Assembly (NCBI RefSeq): GCF_001956915.1
Contig: NZ_MLJO01000002.1
Location: 103,917 to 167,916, forward strand
Length of the DNA stretch: 64,000 nucleotides
Source of the DNA: Intrasporangium flavum
GTDB lineage: Bacteria > Actinomycetota > Actinomycetes > Actinomycetales > Dermatophilaceae
Reading direction: 5' to 3'
The notes under the pieces: model-generated
What the model saw: only the letters and a program-made list of their open reading frames with translations
Told to the model about the DNA's origin: nothing
The model's database searches: none
Made by a program: the position numbers and the translations under genes
In this document: positions 2,490 through 55,895 of the stretch, in pieces
How the letters are laid out: every line of letters begins with the position of its first letter
Numbering within the stretch: position 1 is the first letter of the stretch

Positions 2490-2579
2490 ATGCCTGCGTG
2501 CCGTCGGTGCCCGTCGCAGCCCCGCCGTGGGGTGGACCCCCGGCCGAGCGCCCGCGTGCGACGGGTGGGTTCGCGGTGA
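2490..2579 (+). CDS. candidate 29-residue upstream ORF
   Basis: An ATG at 2490 follows a good ribosome site (GGAGAG, four-base spacer) and opens a 29-codon frame. The peptide is arginine-rich with a CRRC pair near its N-terminus. Its TGA stop overlaps the GTG start of the GAF-ANTAR gene as GTGA, the arrangement used elsewhere in this window for coupled genes. The GAF-ANTAR start itself has no clear ribosome site, so re-initiation after this small ORF is plausible. No family is recognised and the peptide may be only a leader. Confidence 0.4.
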   Translation: MPACRRCPSQPRRGVDPRPSARVRRVGSR

Positions 2580-3298
2580 CCGACGGGCTCAACCCCGCGG
2601 CCCTGGCCGCCAGCCTGCGCCGCCTCGACGAGCGCGGCGACCCGAGCGCCCTGCGCCCCTCGCTCCAGCGGGTCATCGAGGCCTGCGACCAGCTCTTCGA
2701 CGTCGACGGCAGCGGCCTGATGCTGACCGACGAGCACGGCGACCTGCACTACACGGCGGCCTCCGACGGCCCCGGCACCCTCCTCGAGCAGGCACAGGTC
2801 GAGACCGGCCAGGGCCCCTGCATCGACACCTTCACCCACGACCTCGCGGTGGAGACACCTGACGTCGTGACGGACTCCCGCTGGCCCGACCTCGGACGCC
2901 GGCTCGAGGGGCTCGGGGTCGCCGCGGTGCTCGGCGTCCCCGTGCACCTCGCGGGGGTCTGCGTGGGCAGCCTCAACCTCTACCGCGCGCGTGCCGGGGC
3001 GTGGGCCGACGCCCAGCAGCCCGCGCTCGAGAAGTTCGCCGAGGTCGCCGAGACGATGATGTCGGCGGCGATTGCGGCCGACCGCGCGGGCGAGGTGGCG
3101 AGCCAGCTGTCCTACGCCCTCGACTACCGCGCCCCGATCGAGCGCAGCGTCGGCTTCCTCATGGGCCGCGACGGGATGTCGCAGCCCGACGCGTTCAACC
3201 TGCTTCGCTCGACCGCGCGCAACAGCCGGCGCAAGGTCGCGGACGTCGCCGAGCACCTGCTCGGCACAGGCCTGTTGCCGGGAGAGGAGCGCACGTGA
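2576..3298 (+). CDS. GAF and ANTAR domain-containing protein
   Basis: The 240-residue protein has a GAF domain (about residues 20-160) with family patterns such as GSGLMLTDEHG, ETGQGPCIDTF and LGVPVHL. A C-terminal ANTAR domain (about 170-235) shows APIERSVGFLMGRDGMSQPDAF. ANTAR domains bind paired hairpins in mRNA and act as antiterminators, and GAF domains sense small ligands or redox state, so this is probably a signal-responsive RNA-binding regulator. The GTG at 2576 overlaps the stop of the upstream small ORF. The end overlaps the next gene by GTGA. The third ANTAR gene in the cluster is a close paralogue. Confidence 0.88.
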   Translation: MTDGLNPAALAASLRRLDERGDPSALRPSLQRVIEACDQLFDVDGSGLMLTDEHGDLHYTAASDGPGTLLEQAQVETGQGPCIDTFTHDLAVETPDVVTDSRWPDLGRRLEGLGVAAVLGVPVHLAGVCVGSLNLYRARAGAWADAQQPALEKFAEVAETMMSAAIAADRAGEVASQLSYALDYRAPIERSVGFLMGRDGMSQPDAFNLLRSTARNSRRKVADVAEHLLGTGLLPGEERT

Positions 3299-3828
3299 GC
3301 CCCGAGAACCCCGAGGACCCCGAGGTCCTGCTGCAGCCCCGGTCGGCCGCCCCGGCGACAGCGGCCGGCGGCCTGCTCGACGGTCACCCCGGCCCTCCCG
3401 CGCCCCGTGTCGCCGGGCCGGTGCTGCGGCCGGAGGCACTCGATGCCCTCCAGCGCCTCGTCGACGCCCTCGTCGACGAGCCCGGCGGCAGCGAGGACGA
3501 GGCCCCCGCGGACCGTGTCCCCACGGCCGAGCTCGACGACGTCGTGCGGCTCCTCGGCGGCGAGGGCGGCCCGGTGCCGGAGGTGCTGCTCCTCGCGCAC
3601 CGGGCGGTGGCCCTCCGCCTCGAGCGGGACAACCTGCGCGTCGCGCTCGAGACGAACCGCTCGATCAGCGCCGCAGTCGGGGTGCTCATGGGCCTGCACC
3701 ACGTGACCCAGGACGACGCCTTCGACCTGCTCGTGCGCGCGAGCCAGAACCGCAACCGCAAGCTGCGGGACATCGCCGAGGACGTCATCCGGACCGGCGT
3801 GCTCCCCGCCTCGGAGGAGCCGGAGTGA
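3295..3828 (+). CDS. ANTAR domain-containing protein
   Basis: This 177-residue protein starts at a GTG overlapping the previous stop (GTGA), so the two genes are surely translated together. The first half is proline- and acid-rich with no domain I recognise. The C-terminal 60 residues form an ANTAR domain: a leading helix, then NRSISAAVGVLMGLHHVTQDDAF and NRKLRDIAEDVI. It lacks a GAF sensor and may work with its neighbour as an RNA-binding partner. The partner and RNA target are unknown. Confidence 0.8.
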   Translation: MSPENPEDPEVLLQPRSAAPATAAGGLLDGHPGPPAPRVAGPVLRPEALDALQRLVDALVDEPGGSEDEAPADRVPTAELDDVVRLLGGEGGPVPEVLLLAHRAVALRLERDNLRVALETNRSISAAVGVLMGLHHVTQDDAFDLLVRASQNRNRKLRDIAEDVIRTGVLPASEEPE

Positions 3829-3842
3829 GGGCGTTCGAGGCT

Positions 3843-3868
3843 GTCTGACAAGCCGAGGGCGCGGGTAG
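3843..3868 (+). promoter_or_regulatory. candidate SigB-type promoter for the second GAF-ANTAR gene
   Basis: GTCT (3843-3846), a 16-base spacer and GGGTAG (3863-3868) fit the relaxed actinobacterial SigB pattern GNNT-N14-16-GGGTA. It ends about 35 bases before the chosen ATG and about 20 before the alternative GTG. The minus-35 box is one base away from GTTT, so this is weaker than the strict copies near 5.9, 10.1 and 54.2 kb. Confidence 0.45.
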
Positions 3869-3903
3869 CGTCGACACGTACCCGATCCGTGAGCGAGGCT
3901 CCG

Positions 3904-4728
3904 ATGACGTCCCAGGCCGAGTCCGGCCGTCCCAGCCCGACCGTCGACCCTTCGGCGCTCGCGACCCGTCTGGCCGCGGTGGCCGACAGCGACGGCCAGG
4001 CCCTGCTCGAGCCCTCCCTGCGCAGCATCGCGGTGGCGTGCGACGACCTCTTCCGCGTGGACGGGACGGGCATCATGCTCGCCGACGAGTCGGGCGAGCT
4101 GCGCTACGTCGTGGCCACCGACGACGTCGGTCGTCGCCTCGAGCAGGCGCAGCTGCAGACCTCCGAGGGCCCGTGCATCGACGCGTTCGTGCGGGGTGGA
4201 CCCGTGACCGTCCCGGACCTCGCCGTCGACCGACGGTGGGTGCGGTTGGCGCGAGCCTTGTCCGACAGCGAGATCCGTGCGGTTCTCGGAGTGCCGATCA
4301 ACCTCGGCGGCGCTCCGGTCGGCACCCTCAACGTGTATCGGACCGAGGAGACGGTGTGGGGCGAGGACGTCGCCGCGGCCCTGGTTCGGTTCGCCGAGGT
4401 CGCCGAGCAGCTGATGGGAGCCGCCGTCGCGGCCGAGCGGGCCGGGGCCCTGGCCGCCCAGCTGACCTACGCCCTCGAGTACCGCGCCCCCATCGAGCGC
4501 GCCGTCGGCTTCCTCATGGCGCGCGGCGGCCTGACGCAGCCCGACGCGTTCGAACTGCTGCGGTCCACGGCACGCAGCAGTCGTCGACGCATCGGTGAGG
4601 TCGCGAACGCGGTGCTCGCGTCCGCCGACGGGGCTGACGGCGCGTCCGGCGACGGGTCCGGCTCCGACGCGTCTTTCGAGCGCGGGGTGCCCGTCCGACG
4701 CCGTTCCGGGCCGCCCGGCGGCCGCTGA
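3904..4728 (+). CDS. GAF and ANTAR domain-containing protein (second copy)
   Basis: This 274-residue paralogue of the protein at 2576-3298 has the same layout: a GAF domain (about residues 25-165) with GTGIMLADESG and SEGPCIDAF, then an ANTAR domain (about 175-240) with APIERAVGFLMARGGLTQPDAF. A disordered Gly/Ser/Asp-rich tail of about 30 residues follows. I chose the ATG at 3904 because GCGAGG sits five bases upstream; a GTG at 3889 adds five residues. It has its own SigB-like promoter candidate and is followed by a strong bidirectional terminator, so it may be transcribed apart from the first two ANTAR genes. Confidence 0.88.
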   Translation: MTSQAESGRPSPTVDPSALATRLAAVADSDGQALLEPSLRSIAVACDDLFRVDGTGIMLADESGELRYVVATDDVGRRLEQAQLQTSEGPCIDAFVRGGPVTVPDLAVDRRWVRLARALSDSEIRAVLGVPINLGGAPVGTLNVYRTEETVWGEDVAAALVRFAEVAEQLMGAAVAAERAGALAAQLTYALEYRAPIERAVGFLMARGGLTQPDAFELLRSTARSSRRRIGEVANAVLASADGADGASGDGSGSDASFERGVPVRRRSGPPGGR

Positions 4729-4836: not shown

Positions 4837-5763
4837 TCAGCCGGCGAGCGGTTCGGGCTCCCCGAGCTCGTCGCGCAGCTGCTGGAAGGTGCGCCCGAGC
4901 AGCCGGGACACCTGCATCTGGGTGGCGCCGAGCTCGGCGGCGATCTCGCGCTGGGTCCGGTCCTCGACGAAGCGCAGGTGCAGCACCCGGCGGGTCCGCG
5001 GGGACAGGGACGCCAGGGCGCGGCCGAGGTCGACGTGGTCGCAGAGCCGCTCGAGGTCGGGGTCGTCCTCGCACACGGCGTCGGCCACGTGGTTCTGCTC
5101 GCCCGTCGTGGTCGGCAGGTCGATGGACAGCGGCCGGAAGCTCGAGTCCGAACCCTCGGCCTCGCCCATGGAGACCGTGTCGACGCCGAGCGCGTCCGCG
5201 AGCTCGTCTCGGGTCGGGGTGCGGCCCAGCTCGTGGGTGACCACCTCACGTTTCTGGCGCAGGGCGAGGCGCAGCTCCTGCACCCGGCGGGACGGGCGCA
5301 CGACCCAGCCGTGGTCGCGGAAGTGGCGCTTGAGCTCGCCAGAGACCGTGGGCACGGCGTAGCCGGCGAAGGAGGCACCGACCCGCGGGCGGTAGCGGCG
5401 GATCGCCTTGAGCAGGGCCAGGCGGGCGACCTGGAGCAGGTCGTCGCGCTCGATGCCGCGGTTGCAGTAGCGGCGGGCGAGGCCGTCGCAGAGGTCGGCG
5501 TGCAGCGCGAAGATCTGGTCGACGACGCGATGGCCCTCCGGGGTGTCGGCGCCACCGGCCTCGGCCAGCTCGGCGAAGAGGGCATCGGTACGGGCGTCGC
5601 GCTGCGCGTGGACGCGTGCGGACTCGGCCCGCAGCTCGGTGCGGTCCCGCCGGTTGGTGTCCGCGAGGGCGCCTCCGGAGGTCCCTCCGGGTGTTTCACG
5701 GGGCGTCTCGACCGTGCGGGCGGGTGTGCGGACAGGGGTGGACGTACGGGTGGAAACGGTCAT
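4837..5763 (-). CDS. SigB/SigF/SigG family RNA polymerase sigma factor
   Basis: The 308-residue protein is a sigma-70 factor of the general-stress type. Region 2 contains the core-binding and minus-10 reading segment (RDDLLQVARLALLKAIRRYRP, then FAGYAVPTVSGELKRHFRDHGW). Region 3 begins at PSRRVQELRLALRQ, and region 4 ends the protein with QREIAAELGATQMQVSRLLG. A disordered N-terminal 60 residues is extra. The ATG at 5763 has GGAGGACC just upstream. No anti-sigma kinase or antagonist gene adjoins it. SigB-type promoter motifs cluster around it, which suggests the regulon it reads. Confidence 0.9.
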   Translation of the reverse strand: MTVSTRTSTPVRTPARTVETPRETPGGTSGGALADTNRRDRTELRAESARVHAQRDARTDALFAELAEAGGADTPEGHRVVDQIFALHADLCDGLARRYCNRGIERDDLLQVARLALLKAIRRYRPRVGASFAGYAVPTVSGELKRHFRDHGWVVRPSRRVQELRLALRQKREVVTHELGRTPTRDELADALGVDTVSMGEAEGSDSSFRPLSIDLPTTTGEQNHVADAVCEDDPDLERLCDHVDLGRALASLSPRTRRVLHLRFVEDRTQREIAAELGATQMQVSRLLGRTFQQLRDELGEPEPLAG

Positions 5764-5889: not shown

Positions 5890-5914
5890 GTTTGCGCGGC
5901 GCCGCCTCGGGTAG
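5890..5914 (+). promoter_or_regulatory. strict SigB-type promoter for the SDR stress gene
   Basis: GTTT (5890-5893), a 15-base spacer and GGGTAG (5909-5914) match the actinobacterial SigB/SigF consensus. It ends 60 bases before the SDR start codon, and the SigB-type factor gene is divergent just upstream. The 127 bases between the two start regions hold nothing else I can name. Confidence 0.75.
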
Positions 5915-5974
5915 TTGCCGGTCGGGAGCACGTCGGCGCGAGGCGCCGGGCCCGCGAGCGGTCAGGAGGAAGTC

Positions 5975-6880
5975 ATGGCGTCGTCCGAGATCGGCGAGCG
6001 CGCAGCGGCCATGGTGCGAGACGACGAGCGCGGGGGTTTCCCGCCCCAGCAGGAGCCGCCAGGGCTGACGAGCCGGATGCAGCCGGTGCCGGACCACGGT
6101 GAGACCACCTACGTGGGACACGGCCGCCTCACCGGGATGAAGGCGCTCGTCACCGGAGGGGACTCCGGGATCGGCCGAGCCGTCGCGATCGCCTTCGCCC
6201 GCGAGGGCGCCGACGTGGCCATCAGCTACCTCGAGCCCGAGCAGTCCGACGCCGAGGACACCCTGGAGTGGATCCGCCGCGAAGGTCGCACCGGCGCCCT
6301 GCTGCCCGGCGACCTGACCCAGCGGCAGACCTGTCTGCAGGTCGTCGCCGACACGGTGCGCGAGCTCGGCGGCCTCGACATCCTCGTCAACAACGCCGGG
6401 TTCCACTGGGACAAGGGGGCCAAGGGCCTCGAGGGCCTCCAGCCCGACAACGTCCACCGGGTCCTCGGCACCAACCTCGAGGCGGTGCTCTGGCTCTGCC
6501 AGGCGGCGCTGCCGCACCTCGGTCCGGGGTCGTGCATCATCAACACCACCTCGATCCAGGCCTACGACCCGTCCCCGAGCCTGCTCGACTACGCCGCCAC
6601 GAAGGCCGCTCTGAACAACCTGACCGTAAACCTCGCGGCGTCATTGGGGCCCAAGGGAATCCGCGTCAACGCCGTGGCACCGGGCCCGATCTGGACACCG
6701 CTGCAGCCTGCCACGCGCGAGGCGGACAAGATCGAGACCTTCGGCGCGCAGACGCCACTCGGCCGGGCCGGCCAGCCGGCGGAGGTGGCGCCGGCGTACG
6801 TCTTCCTCGCCTCCCCGAGCGACGCGAGCTACGTGTCGGGCACCGTGCTCGGCGTCACCGGTGGCGGGGCGGTGTTCTGA
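5975..6880 (+). CDS. SDR family oxidoreductase, general-stress type
   Basis: The 301-residue enzyme has a short-chain dehydrogenase core. The nucleotide site is TGGDSGIGRA, NNAG follows strand four, the catalytic Ser lies in INTTSIQAY and the YAATK motif supplies Tyr and Lys. The N-terminal 45-residue extension and the overall sequence resemble the Bacillus general stress protein 39 (YdaD) group, oxidoreductases of unsettled substrate. The ATG at 5975 follows AGGAGGAAGTC, an excellent ribosome site. A strict SigB-type promoter lies 60 bases upstream, and the UdgX-like gene follows 19 bases after its stop, so the two are probably one stress operon. Confidence 0.88.
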   Translation: MASSEIGERAAAMVRDDERGGFPPQQEPPGLTSRMQPVPDHGETTYVGHGRLTGMKALVTGGDSGIGRAVAIAFAREGADVAISYLEPEQSDAEDTLEWIRREGRTGALLPGDLTQRQTCLQVVADTVRELGGLDILVNNAGFHWDKGAKGLEGLQPDNVHRVLGTNLEAVLWLCQAALPHLGPGSCIINTTSIQAYDPSPSLLDYAATKAALNNLTVNLAASLGPKGIRVNAVAPGPIWTPLQPATREADKIETFGAQTPLGRAGQPAEVAPAYVFLASPSDASYVSGTVLGVTGGGAVF

Positions 6881-6899
6881 TGCCCGCCACCGCGGGCCC

Positions 6900-7604
6900 A
6901 TGAGCTCCTCGGGCCGTGGAGCGGCCACCGCCCCTCCCCACCGCCCACGGCCCGAGGACTTTCCCGGCGCGGCGCAGTGGGTGCCGCCGAGGGCGTCCGT
7001 CGCCGAGCTGCGGGCCGCCGTCAACGACTGCCGCGGGTGCGACCTGTTCCTCGCGTCGTGCCAGGCGGTCATGGGCGAGGGCCCGCCCGACGCGCACGTC
7101 ATGGTGGTCGGGGAGCAGCCCGGTGACCAGGAGGACCTGGCCGGCCGACCGTTCGTGGGCCCGGCCGGCCGGCTGCTCGACTGGGCGCTGGCCGACGCCG
7201 GGTTCGACCCGGGCGCCGTCTTCCGCACCAACGTCGTCAAGCACTTCCGCCACACGCAGCGGGGGAAGCGGCGCATCCACGAGGGCCCGTCGCGCTGGCA
7301 CGTGGCCGCCTGTGAGCCGTGGTTGCTGGCCGAGCTCGGCGCCGTCCGCCCGTCCGTGGTGGTCCTCCTGGGCGCCACGGCGGGCCAGGCGGTGTTCGGC
7401 ACCTCCTTCCGGGTCGGTGCCATGCGCGGTCGTCGGCTCGAGTGGCCCGCCGAGCACCCGTCGGCGTGGGCGCCGACCGCCGTGGTGGCGACCGCCCACC
7501 CCTCCTCCGTGCTCCGGTCCCGCAGGCGCGACGAGGACCTGTCCGTCCTCGTGGCCGACCTCGTCATGGCGCGGCAGCTGCTCGATGACCTGTCCGAGGA
7601 CTGA
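6900..7604 (+). CDS. udgX: UdgX-like uracil-DNA glycosylase
   Basis: The 234-residue protein belongs to the uracil-DNA glycosylase superfamily near family 4. It has the active-site motif GEQPGDQEDLAGRPFVGPAG (from about residue 66), an early Cys pair (CRGC) and a later CEPW consistent with the iron-sulfur ligands, and HPSS near residue 200. It also carries KRRIH (about residues 123-127), the inserted loop that defines UdgX, whose histidine forms a covalent bond with abasic DNA after uracil removal in Mycobacterium. Location behind a SigB-controlled SDR gene suggests a role in stress repair. The start could also be the GTG at 6861, overlapping the SDR gene. Confidence 0.85.
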   Translation: MSSSGRGAATAPPHRPRPEDFPGAAQWVPPRASVAELRAAVNDCRGCDLFLASCQAVMGEGPPDAHVMVVGEQPGDQEDLAGRPFVGPAGRLLDWALADAGFDPGAVFRTNVVKHFRHTQRGKRRIHEGPSRWHVAACEPWLLAELGAVRPSVVVLLGATAGQAVFGTSFRVGAMRGRRLEWPAEHPSAWAPTAVVATAHPSSVLRSRRRDEDLSVLVADLVMARQLLDDLSED

Positions 7605-7623
7605 CGGACCGGCCCACGGGTAG
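7599..7623 (+). promoter_or_regulatory. candidate SigB-type promoter (relaxed)
   Basis: GACT (7599-7602), a 15-base spacer and GGGTAG (7618-7623) fit the relaxed GNNT-N15-GGGTA form. It overlaps the end of the udgX-like gene and stops 36 bases before the flavoprotein start. The minus-35 part is degenerate. Confidence 0.4.
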
Positions 7624-7659
7624 GGGGCCGGGGACCACCCGTCACGAGAAGGAGCCCCC

Positions 7660-8265
7660 ATGCCGCTGCGCGCGACCGCCCTCAACTGCACCCTCAGCGC
7701 CTCGCCGGCCGAGTCGAGCACCGAGCTGCTGGCCCAGCAGGTCCTCGACGAGCTGGCCCGCCACGACGTCACCGGGTCGGTCGTGCGCGTCGTCGACCAC
7801 GACGTGCGCCCCGGCGTCGAGCTCGACATGGGCGACGGCGACGAGTGGCCGGGCATCCGCGAGACGATCATGGCCAGCGACATCCTCGTGCTCGCCACCC
7901 CGACCTGGCTCGGCCAGCCCAGCAGCGTCTGCCAGCGCGTCCTCGAGCGGCTCGACGCCGAGCTGTCCGAGAAGGACGAGCAGGGCCGCCTGCGCACGTA
8001 CGGCAAGGTTGCCGTCGGGGTCGTCGTCGGCAACGAGGACGGCGCCCACCACATCAGCGCGGTGCTCTTCCAGTCGCTCAACGACGTCGGCTTCACGATC
8101 CCGGCCGGCGGCGTGACGTACTGGAACGGCGAGGCCATGCACGGCACGGACTACAAGGACCTCGGGTCGACGCCCGAGACCGTGGCGGGCACGACGACGA
8201 CGCTGGCGGCCAACGCGGCCCACCTCGCGAGGGCGCTCGCCGACGCTCCCTACCCGCCGTCCTGA
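7660..8265 (+). CDS. flavodoxin-like NAD(P)H-dependent oxidoreductase
   Basis: The 201-residue protein looks like the flavodoxin-fold NADPH-dependent FMN reductase family. The first strand leads into an FMN phosphate loop (NCTLSASPAESSTELL), and ILVLATPTWLGQPSSVCQRVLERLD forms the typical second FMN-binding loop. GVVVGNEDGAHH follows the central strand. Such proteins reduce flavins or quinones and some protect against redox stress. The ATG at 7660 follows GAGAAGGAG. A relaxed SigB-like promoter precedes it. Its 3' end overlaps the 3' end of the opposite-strand gene by 16 bases. Confidence 0.82.
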   Translation: MPLRATALNCTLSASPAESSTELLAQQVLDELARHDVTGSVVRVVDHDVRPGVELDMGDGDEWPGIRETIMASDILVLATPTWLGQPSSVCQRVLERLDAELSEKDEQGRLRTYGKVAVGVVVGNEDGAHHISAVLFQSLNDVGFTIPAGGVTYWNGEAMHGTDYKDLGSTPETVAGTTTTLAANAAHLARALADAPYPPS

Positions 8266-8864
8266 CCGGCAAGGTCCACGCGCCCGTGCACGAGTGCGCG
8301 GACGCTCTCGTCGTGGAGCCGCTCGAGCGCGTCGACGCGTCGGCTCGCGGTGGCCACGAGCGACCTCAGGTCGAGGTCTTCGAGCCGGGCGGTGAGCGGC
8401 CCCAGTCCCTCCAGCTGCTGCCAGGCGAGCAGCATCTGCCACAGGCGCTGCGAGCCGAGGGCTGCGAGGCCGAGGGCCTCGACCTCGACGACGTCGGTGA
8501 GCGGCGTCCGCTGCGTCCACGAGCCGTTGGGCTTGAGCCGACCCAGGCGTTCCGCGACGAGCGTCGACGCGCGTCGGGCCCGGCTCGGTTCGACACCGAG
8601 GGCGCACATGAGCCGGCCCAGGGCCTCGCGGTCGGCCCGCACCTCGTGCACCATCCCGCCGAGGACCTGCCGCGCTGACGCCTGAAGGTGGCTGCGGGCC
8701 GTCAGGCCGAGCCGGGCGGCCCCGGCTGCGAGGGCGGCGTCGTGGTCGCGGAGGTAGACGACGAGCTGGTCACGGGTCGAGGGGCCGGAGGGGTCAGAGG
8801 TGCTGGGGTTGCCGGTCGCCGACGTTGCGGCGGCCTGCGGTTCGGGGCTCGCGGGAGGGTTCAC
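8250..8864 (-). CDS. unknown alpha-helical protein coupled to the alcohol dehydrogenase
   Basis: The 204-residue protein is not recognised. After a proline- and serine-rich N-terminal 30 residues it is almost entirely predicted helical, with repeated Arg/Leu/Ala heptads, and has no signal peptide or membrane segment. Its GTG start overlaps the alcohol dehydrogenase stop as GTGA, so both should be made from the SigB-type promoter at 10055-10079. It could be a stress-related structural or DNA-binding bundle protein; that is only inference. Confidence 0.7.
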   Translation of the reverse strand: MNPPASPEPQAAATSATGNPSTSDPSGPSTRDQLVVYLRDHDAALAAGAARLGLTARSHLQASARQVLGGMVHEVRADREALGRLMCALGVEPSRARRASTLVAERLGRLKPNGSWTQRTPLTDVVEVEALGLAALGSQRLWQMLLAWQQLEGLGPLTARLEDLDLRSLVATASRRVDALERLHDESVRALVHGRVDLAGQDGG

Positions 8865-10045
8865 GGCTGCAGCACCACCTTGAGGCAGCCGTCGTGCTTG
8901 TCGCGGAAGGTGCGGTAGAGGTCGGGAGCGTCCTCGAGGGCGCCGTGGTGGGTGGCGAACGACTCGAGCCCGAGCACGTCGTCGTCGGCGTCAACGATGT
9001 CGAGCAGCTCGTCGGTCCACCGCCGCACGTGGCACTGGCCCATCCGGATCGTCAGGCCCTTGTCGAAGAGGTCCATCATCGGCATCGGGTCGGCCGAGCC
9101 GCCGTAGACGCCGCTGACCGACAGCGTCCCGCCGCGGCGCACGGCGTCGACGGCGGTGTGCAGGGCCGCGAGCCGGTCGATGCCCCCGTGCTCGATGGCG
9201 GCCCGCGCGATCGCCTTGGGCATCCGTGCCGCCGCCTTGATCGCCTGCTCCGAGATCGGGTTGCCGTGGGCCTCCATGCCGACCGCGTCGATGACGGCGT
9301 CCGGCCCACGCCCGTCGGTGAGCTCGCGCAGGGCGTCCGCGACGTCGTCGACGCCGGAGAGGTCGACGACCTCAGCGCCGCTGGAGCGGGCGAGGTCGAG
9401 CCGGTCGCCCACGAGGTCGACGCCGATGACGCGCCCGACGCCCCGGTGCACGGCGCTGCGCACGGCGAGCTGCCCCACGGGCCCGAGGCCGAGCACGGCG
9501 AGGGTGTCGTTGCCGTTGACGCCGGCGTGGTCGACGGCCTGCCACGCCGTGGGCAGGATGTCGGAGAGGAACACGTAGCGCTCGTCGGGCAGGCCGTGGC
9601 GCACCTCGACCGGCCCGAAGTCGGCGTGCGGCACCCGCACGTACTCGGCCTGGCCGCCCGGCACCGACCCGTAGAGGCTCGTGTAGCCGAAGAGGCTCGC
9701 GCCCTTGCCCTGCTCGGTGTTCTGCGTCGTCTCGCACTGCGCGAAGAGCCCCCGCGCGCACATCCAGCAGCGGCCGCAGGAGATGTTGAACGGGACGACG
9801 ACGCGGTCGCCGGGCTCGAGGGTCCCAACGCCGGAGCCGACCTCCTCGACGATGCCCATGAACTCGTGGCCGAGCACGTCGCCCTGGCGCAGGTACGGCG
9901 CGAGCACCCCGTAGAGGTGCAGGTCGGAGCCGCAGATCGCCGTCGAGGTGACCCGCACGATCGCGTCCGTCGTGTGTTCGATGGTCGGTTCGGGTACCTC
10001 GGCGACGCGGACGTCTTCCATGCCCCACCAGCAGACAGCCTTCAT
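8861..10045 (-). CDS. zinc-dependent alcohol dehydrogenase
   Basis: The 394-residue enzyme is a medium-chain dehydrogenase of the group that includes glutathione-independent formaldehyde dehydrogenases. Catalytic zinc ligands are visible in AICGSDLH and GHEFMGIVEEVG. The four structural-zinc cysteines lie in CGRCWMCARGLFAQC, and the NAD site is VLGLGPVGQLA. It probably oxidises a small aldehyde or alcohol with NAD. A strict SigB-type promoter ends ten bases upstream of the ATG, so the transcript would be leaderless or nearly so. The unknown helical gene follows by a GTGA overlap. Confidence 0.88.
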   Translation of the reverse strand: MKAVCWWGMEDVRVAEVPEPTIEHTTDAIVRVTSTAICGSDLHLYGVLAPYLRQGDVLGHEFMGIVEEVGSGVGTLEPGDRVVVPFNISCGRCWMCARGLFAQCETTQNTEQGKGASLFGYTSLYGSVPGGQAEYVRVPHADFGPVEVRHGLPDERYVFLSDILPTAWQAVDHAGVNGNDTLAVLGLGPVGQLAVRSAVHRGVGRVIGVDLVGDRLDLARSSGAEVVDLSGVDDVADALRELTDGRGPDAVIDAVGMEAHGNPISEQAIKAAARMPKAIARAAIEHGGIDRLAALHTAVDAVRRGGTLSVSGVYGGSADPMPMMDLFDKGLTIRMGQCHVRRWTDELLDIVDADDDVLGLESFATHHGALEDAPDLYRTFRDKHDGCLKVVLQP

Positions 10046-10054
10046 GCCCGGGAC

Positions 10055-10079
10055 CTACCCGGCGTGTCGCGCACGAAAC
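10055..10079 (-). promoter_or_regulatory. strict SigB-type promoter for the alcohol dehydrogenase operon
   Basis: On the minus strand GTTT (10079-10076), a 15-base spacer and GGGTAG (10060-10055) match the SigB consensus with the same spacing as the SDR promoter at 5890. The minus-10 box lies just ten bases from the ATG at 10045. Confidence 0.75.
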
Positions 10080-14041: not shown

Positions 14042-15862
14042 GTGCTCATGCGCGACGCGGTGTCCGGGGACGGCGGGCGGCGCCCGGCCCGTCACCGTCC
14101 GGCGCCGGGCGACCTCGGCGTGCTCGTCGTCGTCGCTGCCGCCTACTACCTCGGGGCGCGCCTCGGGCTCGGCCTGTCGCTCGTCGAGCACAACGTGACG
14201 CCGCTGTGGCCTCCGACGGGGATCGCGGTGGCCGCCTTCCTGCTGCAGGACCGCAGGCGCTGGACGGCCGTGACGGTGGCGGTGCTCCTGGCCGCGTTCG
14301 CCGTCAACCTGCCGATCAGCACGGGGCCGGTACCGGCGGCCGTGACGGCCCTGGGCAACGCCGCGGCCCCGCTCGTGGCCGCGCTGCTGCTGCGCCGGGT
14401 CGGCTTCCGTCGACAGCTGGACCGCCGGCGCGACGCCCTGGCCATCGTGCTGCTCGGCGCGCTGGCGAGCATGCTCGTCAGCGCCACCGTCGGGGCCGGC
14501 ACGCTCGCGGCGTCGGGGTCGATCCCGATGAGCGAGCTGCCCTCCGCGTGGGCCGTGTGGTGGACGGGCGACGCGATGGGCGTCCTCGTCGTGACGCCGT
14601 TCCTCCTCGCGGTGCCGCTCATCACCGACGGCACGTGGGGCCGGTGGCAGTGGCTGGAGGGCGCTGCCGTGCTCGTCGCGACCGGCCTGGTGTCGGCGTG
14701 GGCGGCCTTCTCGCAGCTGGCGGTCCTCGTCCTCGTCCTGCCCGTCCTGGGCTGGGCGGCGTGGCGTCTGCAGCTGCGCGGTGCCGCACCCGCCGCGCTC
14801 GTCGCGTCGGTCGTCGCGACCTCGGCGGCGGCGCACCAGAGCGGACCGTTCGCGGGGCTCAGCCTCCTCGGGCAGATGCTGAGCCTCCAGTCGTTCAACG
14901 CGTGCGTGGCGCTGACGTCGTTCTTCCTCGCCTCGCTCGTCAGCGAGCGCCTCGACGCCGCGGCAGCCCTCTCCCGGTGGGCGGCCGACCTCGAGGTGCG
15001 CGTGGCGCAGCGCACCGCCGACCTGTCCGAGGCGAACGCGCGGCTGCGGCGCGAGATCCGCTCGCGGTCCCGGGCGCAGCGGCAGCTGAGCCACGAGGAG
15101 GCCCGGGCCGAGCGCGAGCACGAGATCGCCGGGGTGCTCCAGCGCAGCATGCTGCCCGGCCGGCTGCCCGACCTGCCCGGCATCGGCGTGGCCGCCCGGT
15201 ACGTGCCCGCGACGACCGACGTCCAGGTCGGCGGCGACTGGTACGACGTCATCCCGCTCCAGCGCGGGCGGGTCGGTCTCGTCATCGGCGACGTCGCCGG
15301 CCACGGCGTGCAGGCCGCGGCGACGATGGCGCAGGTGCGGATGGCCGTGCGTGCGTACGCCGTCGAGGACCCGTCACCGGTGAGCGTCCTGTGCCGCGTG
15401 CACCGGCTGCTGTCACGGCTCGCCGCCGACGAGATGGTCACGCTCGTCTACCTCGTCGCCGACCCCTCGAGCGGCACGGTGCGCCTCTCGAGCGCCGGCC
15501 ACCCGCCGCCCCTGCTCGTCCACGCCGGGGCCTCGCGGCACCTCGACGGCGCGCTGTCCCCGCCGCTCGGGGTGACTCCCGAGCCGTCCTACACCGAGGT
15601 CGTCCACGCGCTACCGCCCGGGGCGACCCTGCTGCTCTACACCGACGGCCTCGTCGAACGCCGCGGCGTCGCGATCACGGACGGCCTCGAACGGCTCGCG
15701 GCCAGCGCGGTCCGCCTGGTGGGGGAGGACGGCACCGACCTCGGGGCGCTGTGCGACGCACTCCTGCACGACCTGCTCGGTGACGCCGACCGCTCCGACG
15801 ACGTCGCCCTCGTGGCCGTCCGGACCGAGCCGGTGGTGCAGGGTCGGCCCGACCCGTCCTGA
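14042..15862 (+). CDS. MASE1-sensor PP2C-type (SpoIIE/RsbU) phosphatase
   Basis: The 606-residue protein has an N-terminal MASE1-like membrane sensor of about eight helices (about residues 15-300), marked by TPLWPPTGIA. A coiled coil (about 305-365) joins it to a C-terminal SpoIIE-type PP2C phosphatase (about 375-600). Metal-binding motifs are GGDWYDVIPL, GDVAGHG, SAGHPPPLL and YTDGLVERR. Proteins of this class dephosphorylate anti-sigma-factor antagonists and so activate SigB-type factors, which fits the sigma factor at 4.8-5.8 kb, although the partner-switching genes are absent here. GTG at 14042 has GGAG six bases upstream; ATG at 14048 is the alternative. Confidence 0.88.
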   Translation: MLMRDAVSGDGGRRPARHRPAPGDLGVLVVVAAAYYLGARLGLGLSLVEHNVTPLWPPTGIAVAAFLLQDRRRWTAVTVAVLLAAFAVNLPISTGPVPAAVTALGNAAAPLVAALLLRRVGFRRQLDRRRDALAIVLLGALASMLVSATVGAGTLAASGSIPMSELPSAWAVWWTGDAMGVLVVTPFLLAVPLITDGTWGRWQWLEGAAVLVATGLVSAWAAFSQLAVLVLVLPVLGWAAWRLQLRGAAPAALVASVVATSAAAHQSGPFAGLSLLGQMLSLQSFNACVALTSFFLASLVSERLDAAAALSRWAADLEVRVAQRTADLSEANARLRREIRSRSRAQRQLSHEEARAEREHEIAGVLQRSMLPGRLPDLPGIGVAARYVPATTDVQVGGDWYDVIPLQRGRVGLVIGDVAGHGVQAAATMAQVRMAVRAYAVEDPSPVSVLCRVHRLLSRLAADEMVTLVYLVADPSSGTVRLSSAGHPPPLLVHAGASRHLDGALSPPLGVTPEPSYTEVVHALPPGATLLLYTDGLVERRGVAITDGLERLAASAVRLVGEDGTDLGALCDALLHDLLGDADRSDDVALVAVRTEPVVQGRPDPS

Positions 15863-54161: not shown

Positions 54162-54186
54162 GTTTTCGATCCGGCCACACGGGTAT
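54162..54186 (+). promoter_or_regulatory. strict SigB-type promoter near 54.2 kb
   Basis: GTTT (54162-54165), 15 bases, then GGGTAT (54181-54186) match the SigB/SigF consensus exactly. It lies 53 bases before the start of a small ORF, with the topoisomerase IB gene downstream. Confidence 0.75.
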
Positions 54187-54238
54187 GGTCGAAGAGGTAA
54201 CCACCTGTCCGCATCCTCGGGGGATGAAGGCGATAACC

Positions 54239-54445
54239 GTGACCCCTCACGAATCCCACCTCAACAGCGACGGAACGGTCTTCCCGCCGGTCACGCCCGA
54301 CCCGCCCCTGCCGCCGGGGATGGAGGACATCCCGGTGCCCGACATCGTCCCGGTCCGCGCGCCCGACGGCCCCGACCGGGCCGTCGACACGCGGGACGCC
54401 TCTCGCGCCGCGCCCACCCCCGAGAGCGACACCGCCTCCGCCTGA
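54239..54445 (+). CDS. small proline-rich protein under SigB-type control
   Basis: The 68-residue frame encodes a Pro/Asp-rich, apparently unstructured protein (VTPDPPLPPGMEDIPVPDIVPV). GTG at 54239 has GAAGG eight bases upstream; ATG at 54224 is possible, whereas the ATG at 54185 would precede the transcription start predicted from the promoter. No family is recognised. The strict promoter 53 bases upstream argues that it is real. Confidence 0.5.
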   Translation: MTPHESHLNSDGTVFPPVTPDPPLPPGMEDIPVPDIVPVRAPDGPDRAVDTRDASRAAPTPESDTASA

Positions 54446-54517
54446 GCGACGCCCGCCGCTGCACCGGCCGGCTGCCACCCGTGTGCTGACGCGTGCCCCG
54501 CGGGGTACGTGTGGCCC

Positions 54518-55552
54518 ATGAGACTGCGGCGCAGCACCATCGACGGCCCCGGCGTGCGCCGCGTCCGTCGTGGCAAGGGGTTCGGCTACGTCGACGCCGA
54601 CGGGAAGGTGATCGACGCCGACACCCGCGAGCGCGTCAAGTCGCTCGTCATCCCGCCGGCCTGGCAGGACGTCTGGATCAGCCCGCACCCCAACGGGCAC
54701 ATCCAGGCCGTCGGCACCGACGATGCCGGACGCCGCCAGTACCTCTACCACGAGAAGTGGCACGAGGCCCGGGGCCGCGAGAAGCACGACCGCGTGCTCG
54801 CCCTGGCCACGTGCCTGCCGGCCGCCCGCAAGCAGCTGGCGAACGACCTGCGCGACCGCGGTCTGGGCCGGCGTCGCATCACCGCGGCCGCGCTGCACAT
54901 GCTCGATGCCGGCCTGTTCCGCACCGGCGGCGAGGAGTACGAGTCGCAGAACGGCTCGTACGGCGTCGCGACCCTGCTGCGCCAGCACGTCACCGTGAGC
55001 GGGGAGGACATCACCTTCGAGTTCCCCGCCAAGTCCGGGGTGCTGCGCGAGGCGGTCATGACCGACCAGCTGCTCGCCCGGCTCGTCCTGTCGCTCAAGC
55101 GGAGCAGCTACCCGGGGGAGCGGCTGCTCGCCCACCGCGACAAGACCGGCTGGCACGAGCTGCACTCGGCTGACCTCAACGTCGCCTTCAAGGAGCTCGT
55201 CGGCGACGAGTTCACCGTCAAGGACCTGCGCACGTGGGCGGCCACGGTGACGGCCGCCGTGGCCCTGGCGCAGACCGGTCCGGCCGAGACCGAGCGCGAG
55301 CAGAAGCGCGCCGAGAAGGACGCGATGAAGGTCGTCTCGGAGCACCTCGGCAACACCCCGGCCGTGGCGCGGCGCTCGTACGTCGACCCGCGGGTCCTCG
55401 ACGAGTACGCCGTGGGGCGGACGGTCGCCCGCGGCCTGAGCCGGCTGACCAAGGCCGACCGGACGCGTCTGGAGAACGGCGAGCTGGTGCGGGTCCGCGA
55501 CCGCGACGCCCTCGAGCGCGCCGTGATCCGACTCGTCAAGGGCGCCGCGTAG
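54518..55552 (+). CDS. DNA topoisomerase IB
   Basis: The 344-residue enzyme is a poxvirus-like bacterial topoisomerase IB, which relaxes supercoils through a 3'-phosphotyrosine. Visible parts are GFGYVDADGKVID, IPPAWQDVWISPHPNGHIQAVG, FRTGGEEYESQNGSYGVATLL, the KDLRTWAAT motif and RRSYVDPRVL with the catalytic Tyr near residue 287. GGGTAC lies 15 bases before the ATG with a poor minus-35, so SigB control is possible. It sits between two SigB-type promoter candidates. Confidence 0.9.
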   Translation: MRLRRSTIDGPGVRRVRRGKGFGYVDADGKVIDADTRERVKSLVIPPAWQDVWISPHPNGHIQAVGTDDAGRRQYLYHEKWHEARGREKHDRVLALATCLPAARKQLANDLRDRGLGRRRITAAALHMLDAGLFRTGGEEYESQNGSYGVATLLRQHVTVSGEDITFEFPAKSGVLREAVMTDQLLARLVLSLKRSSYPGERLLAHRDKTGWHELHSADLNVAFKELVGDEFTVKDLRTWAATVTAAVALAQTGPAETEREQKRAEKDAMKVVSEHLGNTPAVARRSYVDPRVLDEYAVGRTVARGLSRLTKADRTRLENGELVRVRDRDALERAVIRLVKGAA

Positions 55553-55622: not shown

Positions 55623-55895
55623 ATGCCGAATCGCAAGAGCCCCGGGCCCTCGGTGAAGGACGCGAAGACCTACGAGGCGCTGCGTGACGAGGGCGCCAGC
55701 AAGGAGAAGGCGGCCCGCATTGCCAACGCCGCCGCCAACACCTCCCGCTCATCGGTCGGCCGGAAGGGCGGCGAGGCCGGCAGCTACGAGGACATGACCA
55801 AGGACGAGCTGCTGAAGCGGGCCCGGGAGATCGGCATCGAGGGCCGGTCGTCGATGACGAAGTCCCAGCTGGTCTCCGCCCTCCGCCACCACTGA
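55623..55895 (+). CDS. small DUF7218/Rho-N-like protein
   Basis: The 90-residue basic protein begins with PNRKSPGPSVKDAKTYEALRDEGASKEKAARIANAAA, typical of the DUF7218-like group, and ends in a SAP/Rho-N-like helix pair (MTKDELLKRAREIGIEG, then MTKSQLVSALRHH). Such ends often bind nucleic acid. It follows topoisomerase IB with its own relaxed SigB-like promoter, which suggests a nucleoid or stress role. GAGAGGAGAACC precedes the ATG. Confidence 0.8.
   Translation: MPNRKSPGPSVKDAKTYEALRDEGASKEKAARIANAAANTSRSSVGRKGGEAGSYEDMTKDELLKRAREIGIEGRSSMTKSQLVSALRHH

Follow-up and report, generated by a model that had tools for sequence, protein, structure and literature searches.

Do three identical promoter-like sequences, spread over some 48 kb of a bacterial chromosome, mark a stress regulon, and does the product of the sigma gene next to the first read all three? 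The question is raised by a stretch of 64,000 nucleotides (nt) of the genome of Intrasporangium flavum (assembly GCF_001956915.1, contig NZ_MLJO01000002.1, positions 103,917 to 167,916), hereafter the window, in which the motif GTTT-N15-GGGTA stands before an SDR-udgX gene pair, before a zinc-dependent dehydrogenase gene and before a small open reading frame (ORF) that precedes the gene for DNA topoisomerase IB (TopoIB). On the sequence comparisons set out below, we hold it highly probable that the three sites are promoters read by the sigma factor, of SigB/SigF type, whose gene adjoins the first, and that the genes behind them belong to a general stress regulon. We read this regulon as clustering at the sigma gene without being confined there.

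Three strict sites at gene starts

Exact matching found the three strict motifs, all with the same 15-base spacer, where the original prediction had placed them. The putative SigB-type promoter of SDR-udgX lies at 5890..5913 on the forward strand, that of the dehydrogenase gene at 10056..10079 on the reverse strand, in leaderless geometry, and that of the small ORF before TopoIB at 54162..54185 on the forward strand. Each was said to point into a gene start, and this is what we observe: the last base of GGGTA lies 62 nt from the ATG of the SDR gene (5975), 11 nt from that of the dehydrogenase gene (10045) and 39 nt from that of the small ORF (54224). Dinucleotide-preserving shuffles of the window contain on average 0.03 copies of the motif, against the 3 present, and among all spacings of 5-27 between GTTT and GGGTA, N15 is the sole one to occur in the window. 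Moreover, the window lies at the end of contig C12 of a draft genome of 4.25 Mb (81% complete), and the strict N15 motif occurs 3 times in that genome, each time inside the window. The unusual feature is that all three genome copies stand at gene starts of one 64-kb window; the chance of the second and third site joining the first in such a window is 2.3e-4.

Spacing and position of the motif near SigB-type genes of related genomes

We examined 49 stretches of family genomes, each taken around a SigB-type sigma gene (914,594 bases, all from outside the window). GTTT-Nk-GGGTA is found in them 19 times at k=15 and 12 times at k=16, whilst every other spacing from 3 to 30 gives 0-1 sites, with the exception of 4 at k=21. 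The check set in advance, whether the motif is as common inside genes as before them, returned a no, since all three strict sites of the window precede genes and 0/31 of the strict N15/16 sites near SigB-type genes of relatives fall inside called genes. For the majority (24/31), a called gene on their own strand begins 10-250 nt downstream. By eye, the next genes include those for CsbD-like, hemerythrin-like (HHE), DUF7218 and DUF2795-like proteins and for an orthologue of the window SDR. The forms G[ACG]TT at N15/N16 are likewise over-represented upstream of genes, the remaining single-base variants tested far less so.

Strict sites also gather at sigma genes. In other genomes, 14 of the 123 sites used lie within 5 kb of a SigB-type gene, where 0.30 would be expected. 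This test took 51 SigB-type sigma genes (E<=2.3e-33) and 126 of the 150 listed sites among 188, three of the 126 being the window's own; the 24 sites of genome G014, which has no SigB-type gene among the 51, were set aside. Furthermore, in the sigma-centred stretches L202-L251 (737 called genes) the offset of GGGTA from the start codon peaks at -15, with 9 genes, and GGGTA at -15 or -16 is found in 10/737. This peak suggests that near-leaderless mRNAs are common in the regulon.

Two further observations may be added. The four copies of GTTT-N21-GGGTA, all in L202-L251, each lie upstream of a gene. Secondly, microproteins of about 30 residues, apparently single-helix membrane proteins and alike by eye, are encoded at L233:17472-17564, L327:10628-10720, L273:1160-1252 and L070:337-435; that of L233 lies 11 nt and that of L327 44 nt after a strict SigB-type motif.

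Weaker forms of the motif had been claimed at 3843, 7599 and 55547. By eye, the coordinates are right, but the -35 elements differ (GTCT-N16, GACT-N15 and GCGT-N15, respectively) and two of the three classes found no support. The GTCT class, the one relaxed class covered by the enrichment test, is weakly over-represented near the sigma genes of relatives, and we retain the one-mismatch match at 3843..3867 (forward strand), which precedes the second GAF-ANTAR gene, as a weak SigB-like site of the form GTCT-N16-GGGTA. The GACT-N15 (7599) and GCGT-N15 (55547) sequences, whose classes fall outside the enrichment test, were not counted as sites.

Recurrence at individual genes

The zinc-dependent alcohol/formaldehyde-type dehydrogenase (8861..10045, reverse strand; PF08240/PF00107) has fdhA_non_GSH as its nearest NCBIfam family, matched far under the cut-off of that family. 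Eight of its nine orthologues of at least 78% identity, window included, carry GTTT-N15/16-GGGTA with GGGTA at -15/-16 from the ATG, and the ninth keeps GGGTA and nothing more of the motif. The distance to the ATG is fixed while the spacer sequences vary. The dehydrogenase counts cover 30 of 85 matches, and four loci with identical sites that are common to the dehydrogenase and SDR sets (L291=L066, L292=L065, L295=L067 and L298=L071) were counted once.

Overlapping the dehydrogenase stop codon is the gene for a protein (8250..8864, reverse strand) that the original prediction had called an unknown helical protein. It is predicted to have a YciE/YciF-like ferritin fold, with 9-17% sequence identity to YciE/YciF proteins among the matches listed. 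It matched 0 Pfam families; of the 18 members of its own family two weakly match DUF2383 (best E 0.0017) and none matches a YciE/YciF family, which we take to be DUF892.

Behind the first site, the SDR family oxidoreductase (5975..6880, forward strand; PF13561/PF00106) has orthologues of 78-82% identity in Terracoccus, Terrabacter, Humibacillus, Intrasporangium and others. It is followed by UdgX (6900..7604, forward strand), a covalent uracil-DNA binding glycosylase by TIGR03914, which it matches with 223.6 bits over a cut-off of 189.95 when scored on the longer frame 6861-7604. Its translation contains GEQPG, KRRIH and HPSSVLR, and passages of PMC10359453 define GEQPG, KRRIH and HPSS as the motifs of UdgX. 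The udgX start is probably the ATG at 6900, 19 bases after the SDR stop codon, and we therefore regard the two genes as a tight pair.

UdgX is present in 18/149 family genomes (E<=1e-30). Among the 17 others, a strict N15 site lies within 260 nt upstream of UdgX in five, from three genera, and UdgX is preceded by GGTT-N15 in one more and by GCTT-N15 in another; it follows an SDR gene, as in the window, in two. UdgX lies within 5 kb of a SigB-type gene in at least 7/18 of the UdgX-bearing genomes, a lower bound, its surroundings having been covered to ±1.5 kb (contig permitting) in all 17 others and wider in about two thirds. Taking all kinds of SigB-type link together, 11/18 have some such link. 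Strain URHB0013 (L066, on the same contig as G066/L278) carries SDR, UdgX, the dehydrogenase with its promoter and a partial sigma gene beside the SDR gene.

Downstream of TopoIB, the window encodes a DUF7218/Rho_N small protein (55623..55895, forward strand; PF23855). The DUF7218 family is a likely member of the regulon, because a strict motif precedes the start of its orthologues in L223 and L244 by 45-48 nt and those in L065/L067 have GTGT-N16. GGGTA occurs within 120 nt upstream in 6/8 DUF7218 genes examined, window included, the window form GCGT-N15-GGGTA being degenerate. The -35 element of this regulon is often degenerate. Taken together, the spacing, the clustering at sigma genes and the recurrence at dehydrogenase, UdgX, DUF7218 and TopoIB genes support the placing of UdgX, TopoIB and the helical protein in the regulon, as had been inferred from the window.

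Which sigma factor reads the sites

A number of results weigh against the proposed regulon and are gathered in this and the following two sections. The sigma factor itself (308 residues; 4837..5763, reverse strand, divergent from the SDR gene) has Sigma70 regions 2, 3 and 4 by PF04542, PF04539 and PF04545, all over cut-off. Its best NCBIfam match is SigB/SigF/SigG (TIGR02980) with 215.9 bits, under the cut-off of 234.35, and we therefore call it SigB/SigF-like and not a full member of TIGR02980. The original prediction of a SigB-type sigma factor amid these genes holds as to best family and regions and falls short as to score, whilst the SpoIIE-type phosphatase that it placed close by is indeed found, at 14042-15862, 8 kb from the sigma gene. 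There is no RsbW-like HATPase_c_2 match in the window, the best of the genome being on contig C3. That gene (C3:51374-52047, L010) lies 249 nt after GTTG-N15-GGGTA and is a candidate for an anti-sigma factor within the regulon.

The window sigma is 48-50% identical to its syntenic counterparts, whereas the SDR and dehydrogenase there are about 80% identical, so the sigma factor has either diverged fast or been replaced. The block sigma / SDR / dehydrogenase / second SDR is kept in Terracoccus and Terrabacter. Three successive ANTAR-domain genes (GAF-ANTAR, ANTAR, GAF-ANTAR; window 2576-4728) adjoin the sigma gene, and ANTAR-type genes adjoin it in both of those genera too. In the sigma tree the window sigma groups with those of genomes G021 and G015 (97/83 and 95/84). 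The closest relative, G021, has no strict motif within 5 kb; G015 has two. Over the whole tree, the presence of a motif within 5 kb shows no clustering (15 changes vs 14.4 shuffled), and the one clade to stand out is that of the C14-type paralogue described below (0/7).

The genome also encodes two further SigB-type paralogues, on contigs C5 and C14. The sites may then be SigB-type but read by the C5 paralogue, which is 48% identical to the window sigma, or by several paralogues, with the adjoining sigma mainly otherwise employed. Besides the presence of these paralogues, such a division of labour could draw on the syntenic sigma of Terracoccus, nearer to the C5 paralogue (57%) than to the window sigma (50%), and on the promoters shared by SigB homologues of Streptomyces coelicolor, as reported in passages of PMC8346170. 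However, the 20-kb stretches that surround the C5 and C14 paralogues contain no strict site. In the tree, none of the 7 neighbourhoods in the clade of the C14 type bears the motif, whilst the window sigma clusters with those of G021, which has none, and G015, which has two. We consider this explanation unlikely, at roughly one chance in four, and reading by the adjoining sigma factor remains our preference.

Whether all three sites are functional

GTTT-N13-17-GGGTA lies within 300 nt upstream in just 3/80 SDR orthologues, one of the three (L140) overlapping the start codon, and the seven closest orthologues have no strict site; as a footprint of the SDR promoter, the strict motif failed. GGGTA is found about 37-43 nt upstream in five of those seven, with GCGT, GTCC or GCAT as the -35 element at N15, distances being extrapolated from the first residue of the window SDR (window GGGTA at -66) and uncertain by a few nt. 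At the dehydrogenase gene, the strict site is present in 0/21 orthologues of at most 73% identity, and a relaxed one in three of these (L308, L315 and L318). Moreover, of the 31 strict sites near sigma genes, 7 are not followed by a called gene at a distance of 10-250 nt.

The third site stands before a small conserved protein of 73 residues (54224..54445, forward strand). Its family of 25 listed proteins at E<=0.001, the window's own included, is unnamed or 'hypothetical', and the protein has no plasmid match. Orthologues precede TopoIB in two other genera (L146 and L148), and that of Intrasporangium oryzae sits beside DUF7218 and SDR genes, near a SigB-type sigma gene. In the three orthologues besides the window's own, GGGTA lies 30-75 nt upstream: that of I. 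oryzae has GGTT-N15-GGGTA, with the first base of GGGTA 30 nt before it, and the other two have GGGTA at -54/-75 and at -56, with poorer -35 elements. TopoIB itself (54518..55552, forward strand; PF01028 and PF21338 over cut-off) begins 72 nt after the small ORF and is directly preceded by a GGGTA element at 54503..54507 (forward strand), 15 nt before the ATG and with a weak -35. As a qualification of the original prediction, the site at 54162 precedes the small ORF, and TopoIB has this likely weak -10 to itself.

It is conceivable that just the dehydrogenase site, and perhaps that of SDR-udgX, is functional, that TopoIB is transcribed from an unrelated promoter of its own and that the 54162 site affects the small ORF alone. 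The 72 nt between small ORF and TopoIB, the poor -35 at the GGGTA before TopoIB and the 48 kb between the 54162 site and the sigma gene would all fit. Against this, GGGTA stands at -15/-16 from the ATG in 6/9 TopoIB orthologues of at least 55% identity, and L150 has GTTT-N16-GGGTA at that place; this comparison covers 9 of 27 loci, the fragmentary TopoIB of G007 (60%, L169/L171) being left unjudged. Among more distant TopoIB loci, 1/16 (L154) has GGGTA at -15 from the called start. The small-ORF orthologue of I. oryzae follows GGTT-N15-GGGTA, and L327 has sigma, TopoIB and UdgX within about 5 kb, with strict motifs. In addition, a single 9-kb contig of G029 holds the genes for UdgX, TopoIB, the dehydrogenase and a relative of the helical protein. 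Genes separated in the window by as much as 48 kb are therefore close together in other genomes. We give partial function of this kind a slightly smaller chance than a change of sigma paralogue and continue to treat all three sites as promoters of one regulon.

Genome-wide counts

With three copies against about 6 expected from base composition (about 2 when the shuffle value of the window is scaled), the strict N15 motif is in no excess over the genome; strict N14 and strict N16 have two further copies each. At one mismatch or fewer there are 55 sites at N15 vs 61 for the reversed pattern and 66 vs 75 at N16, and in 59 family genomes the strict sites number 188 vs 188 reversed. The reversed pattern, which begins ATGGG, is an imperfect control, and the spacing profile in the same DNA was therefore used instead. 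The statement that the copies are far more than chance would give stands for the window and not for the genome.

Position tells more than number. One-mismatch N15 sites fall inside called genes in 15/27 cases, compared to a coding fraction of 0.88 (binomial P 1.9e-5), and 9/27 have a called gene within the 250 nt that follow; the test covers 27 of 52 sites. By eye, the genes after these nine include those for a superoxide dismutase and a DUF2383-like protein, and the RsbW-like HATPase gene on C3 is among them too. A genome-wide scan for GTTT-N14-16-GGGTA, proposed as a check, thereby gave no enrichment in count but an avoidance of genes by one-mismatch sites. Similarly, the regulon called local does cluster at the sigma gene, but it probably has remote members and is not purely local, because single-mismatch sites elsewhere in the genome avoid genes too. 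That the three matches are chance copies of a nine-base pattern in a large genome, before genes that are not co-regulated, agrees with the genome count and with the lack of excess over the reversed pattern (at one mismatch here, at zero mismatches family-wide) but is very improbable, given that all three stand in one 64-kb window (2.3e-4) and at gene starts, that the elements at dehydrogenase, UdgX and TopoIB genes recur in orthologues, that chance would hardly produce the spacing profile seen near sigma genes and that conservation in 8/9 orthologues already refutes it for the dehydrogenase site.

A proposed stress module

Under stress, we hypothesise, a predicted partner switch would release the sigma factor, perhaps with the participation of the SpoIIE-type phosphatase encoded 8 kb from it; the sigma factor would then read GTTT-N15/16-GGGTA, together with weaker forms, at neighbouring and remote genes. 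The transcripts of the dehydrogenase and TopoIB genes would have almost no leader. For the encoded proteins we predict a part in protecting DNA and the redox balance. UdgX, by crosslinking to DNA at uracil sites, is a predicted protector of DNA; relaxation of supercoils would fall to TopoIB, the protein with the YciE-like ferritin fold may deal with iron or oxidants, and aldehydes may be detoxified by the dehydrogenases. What we infer is which sigma paralogue acts, what signals the stress, that UdgX and TopoIB are induced and that the two protect jointly.

A broader proposal, to which we lean by a modest margin, is that UdgX, which sacrifices itself in crosslinking to uracil-containing DNA, is a general-stress protein under SigB-type promoters across the family, either as the second gene of an SDR-udgX operon next to the sigma gene or with a promoter of its own, and that it acts with TopoIB and the YciE-like protein in a module protecting the chromosome at times of stress. 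To our knowledge no settled role in the cell has been assigned to UdgX. Should it be turned on by a SigB-type sigma factor, a testable answer follows, namely that the need for UdgX is one of general stress, alongside topoisomerase IB; DNA-protection genes would then be tied to the general stress response. The analysis also shows how SigB regulons of GC-rich actinobacteria can be read through orthologues: motif counts over whole genomes fail there, whereas spacing, position and neighbourhood are informative.

Within the open-licence literature we found no paper that joins UdgX, stress and 'sigma factor', none that names MSMEG_0265, which we take to be the locus tag of the Mycobacterium smegmatis UdgX, and none on a SigB regulon in Intrasporangiaceae. 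UdgX is described, in part of PMC10776899, as sporadically distributed in bacteria.

Comparison with known systems

Lastly, we compared the proposed regulon with known ones. One of the closest in kind is that of SigF in M. smegmatis, taken here from portions of PMC4694148. There the consensus is GTTT-N(14-19)-GGGTA, and the two systems share the promoter GTTT-N15/16-GGGTA and a gathering of members near the sigma gene (MSMEG_1768-1804). Members of the SigF regulon include an oxidoreductase, hemerythrin-type proteins and S-(hydroxymethyl)glutathione dehydrogenases. A 'Type I topoisomerase' is a member too (GTGT-N16-GGGTA), so labelled and perhaps not of the IB kind; in the sigF mutant this topoisomerase (MSMEG_1784) and the oxidoreductase MSMEG_1782 are down. 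The differences are that the main text of that paper has no 'uracil' and does not name UdgX, that the portions used list an RsbW gene near sigF, whereas the window has no HATPase_c_2 match, and that neither the small ORF nor the YciE-like protein could be recognised in those portions.

In passages of PMC8346170, SigB promoters of Bacillus subtilis and S. coelicolor are likewise given as GTTT..GGGTA. S. coelicolor resembles I. flavum in having several SigB paralogues in one genome, but the -35 of its SigB, SigL and SigM promoters is loose (GNNT), unlike the GTTT and the 15/16 spacing found here. The EcfG stress regulon of Sphingomonas melonis, as listed in part of PMC6599016, also includes a topoisomerase IB with its own promoter motif, although the sigma factor is of an unrelated type and the promoter is GGAAC..GTT-like. 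The helical protein differs from the YciE/YciF ferritin-like stress proteins in its low identity to the matches listed and in having no Pfam match. Taken together, this type of regulon, with its topoisomerase, oxidoreductase and dehydrogenase members, is already known in kind, and the link of UdgX to a sigma factor looks new.

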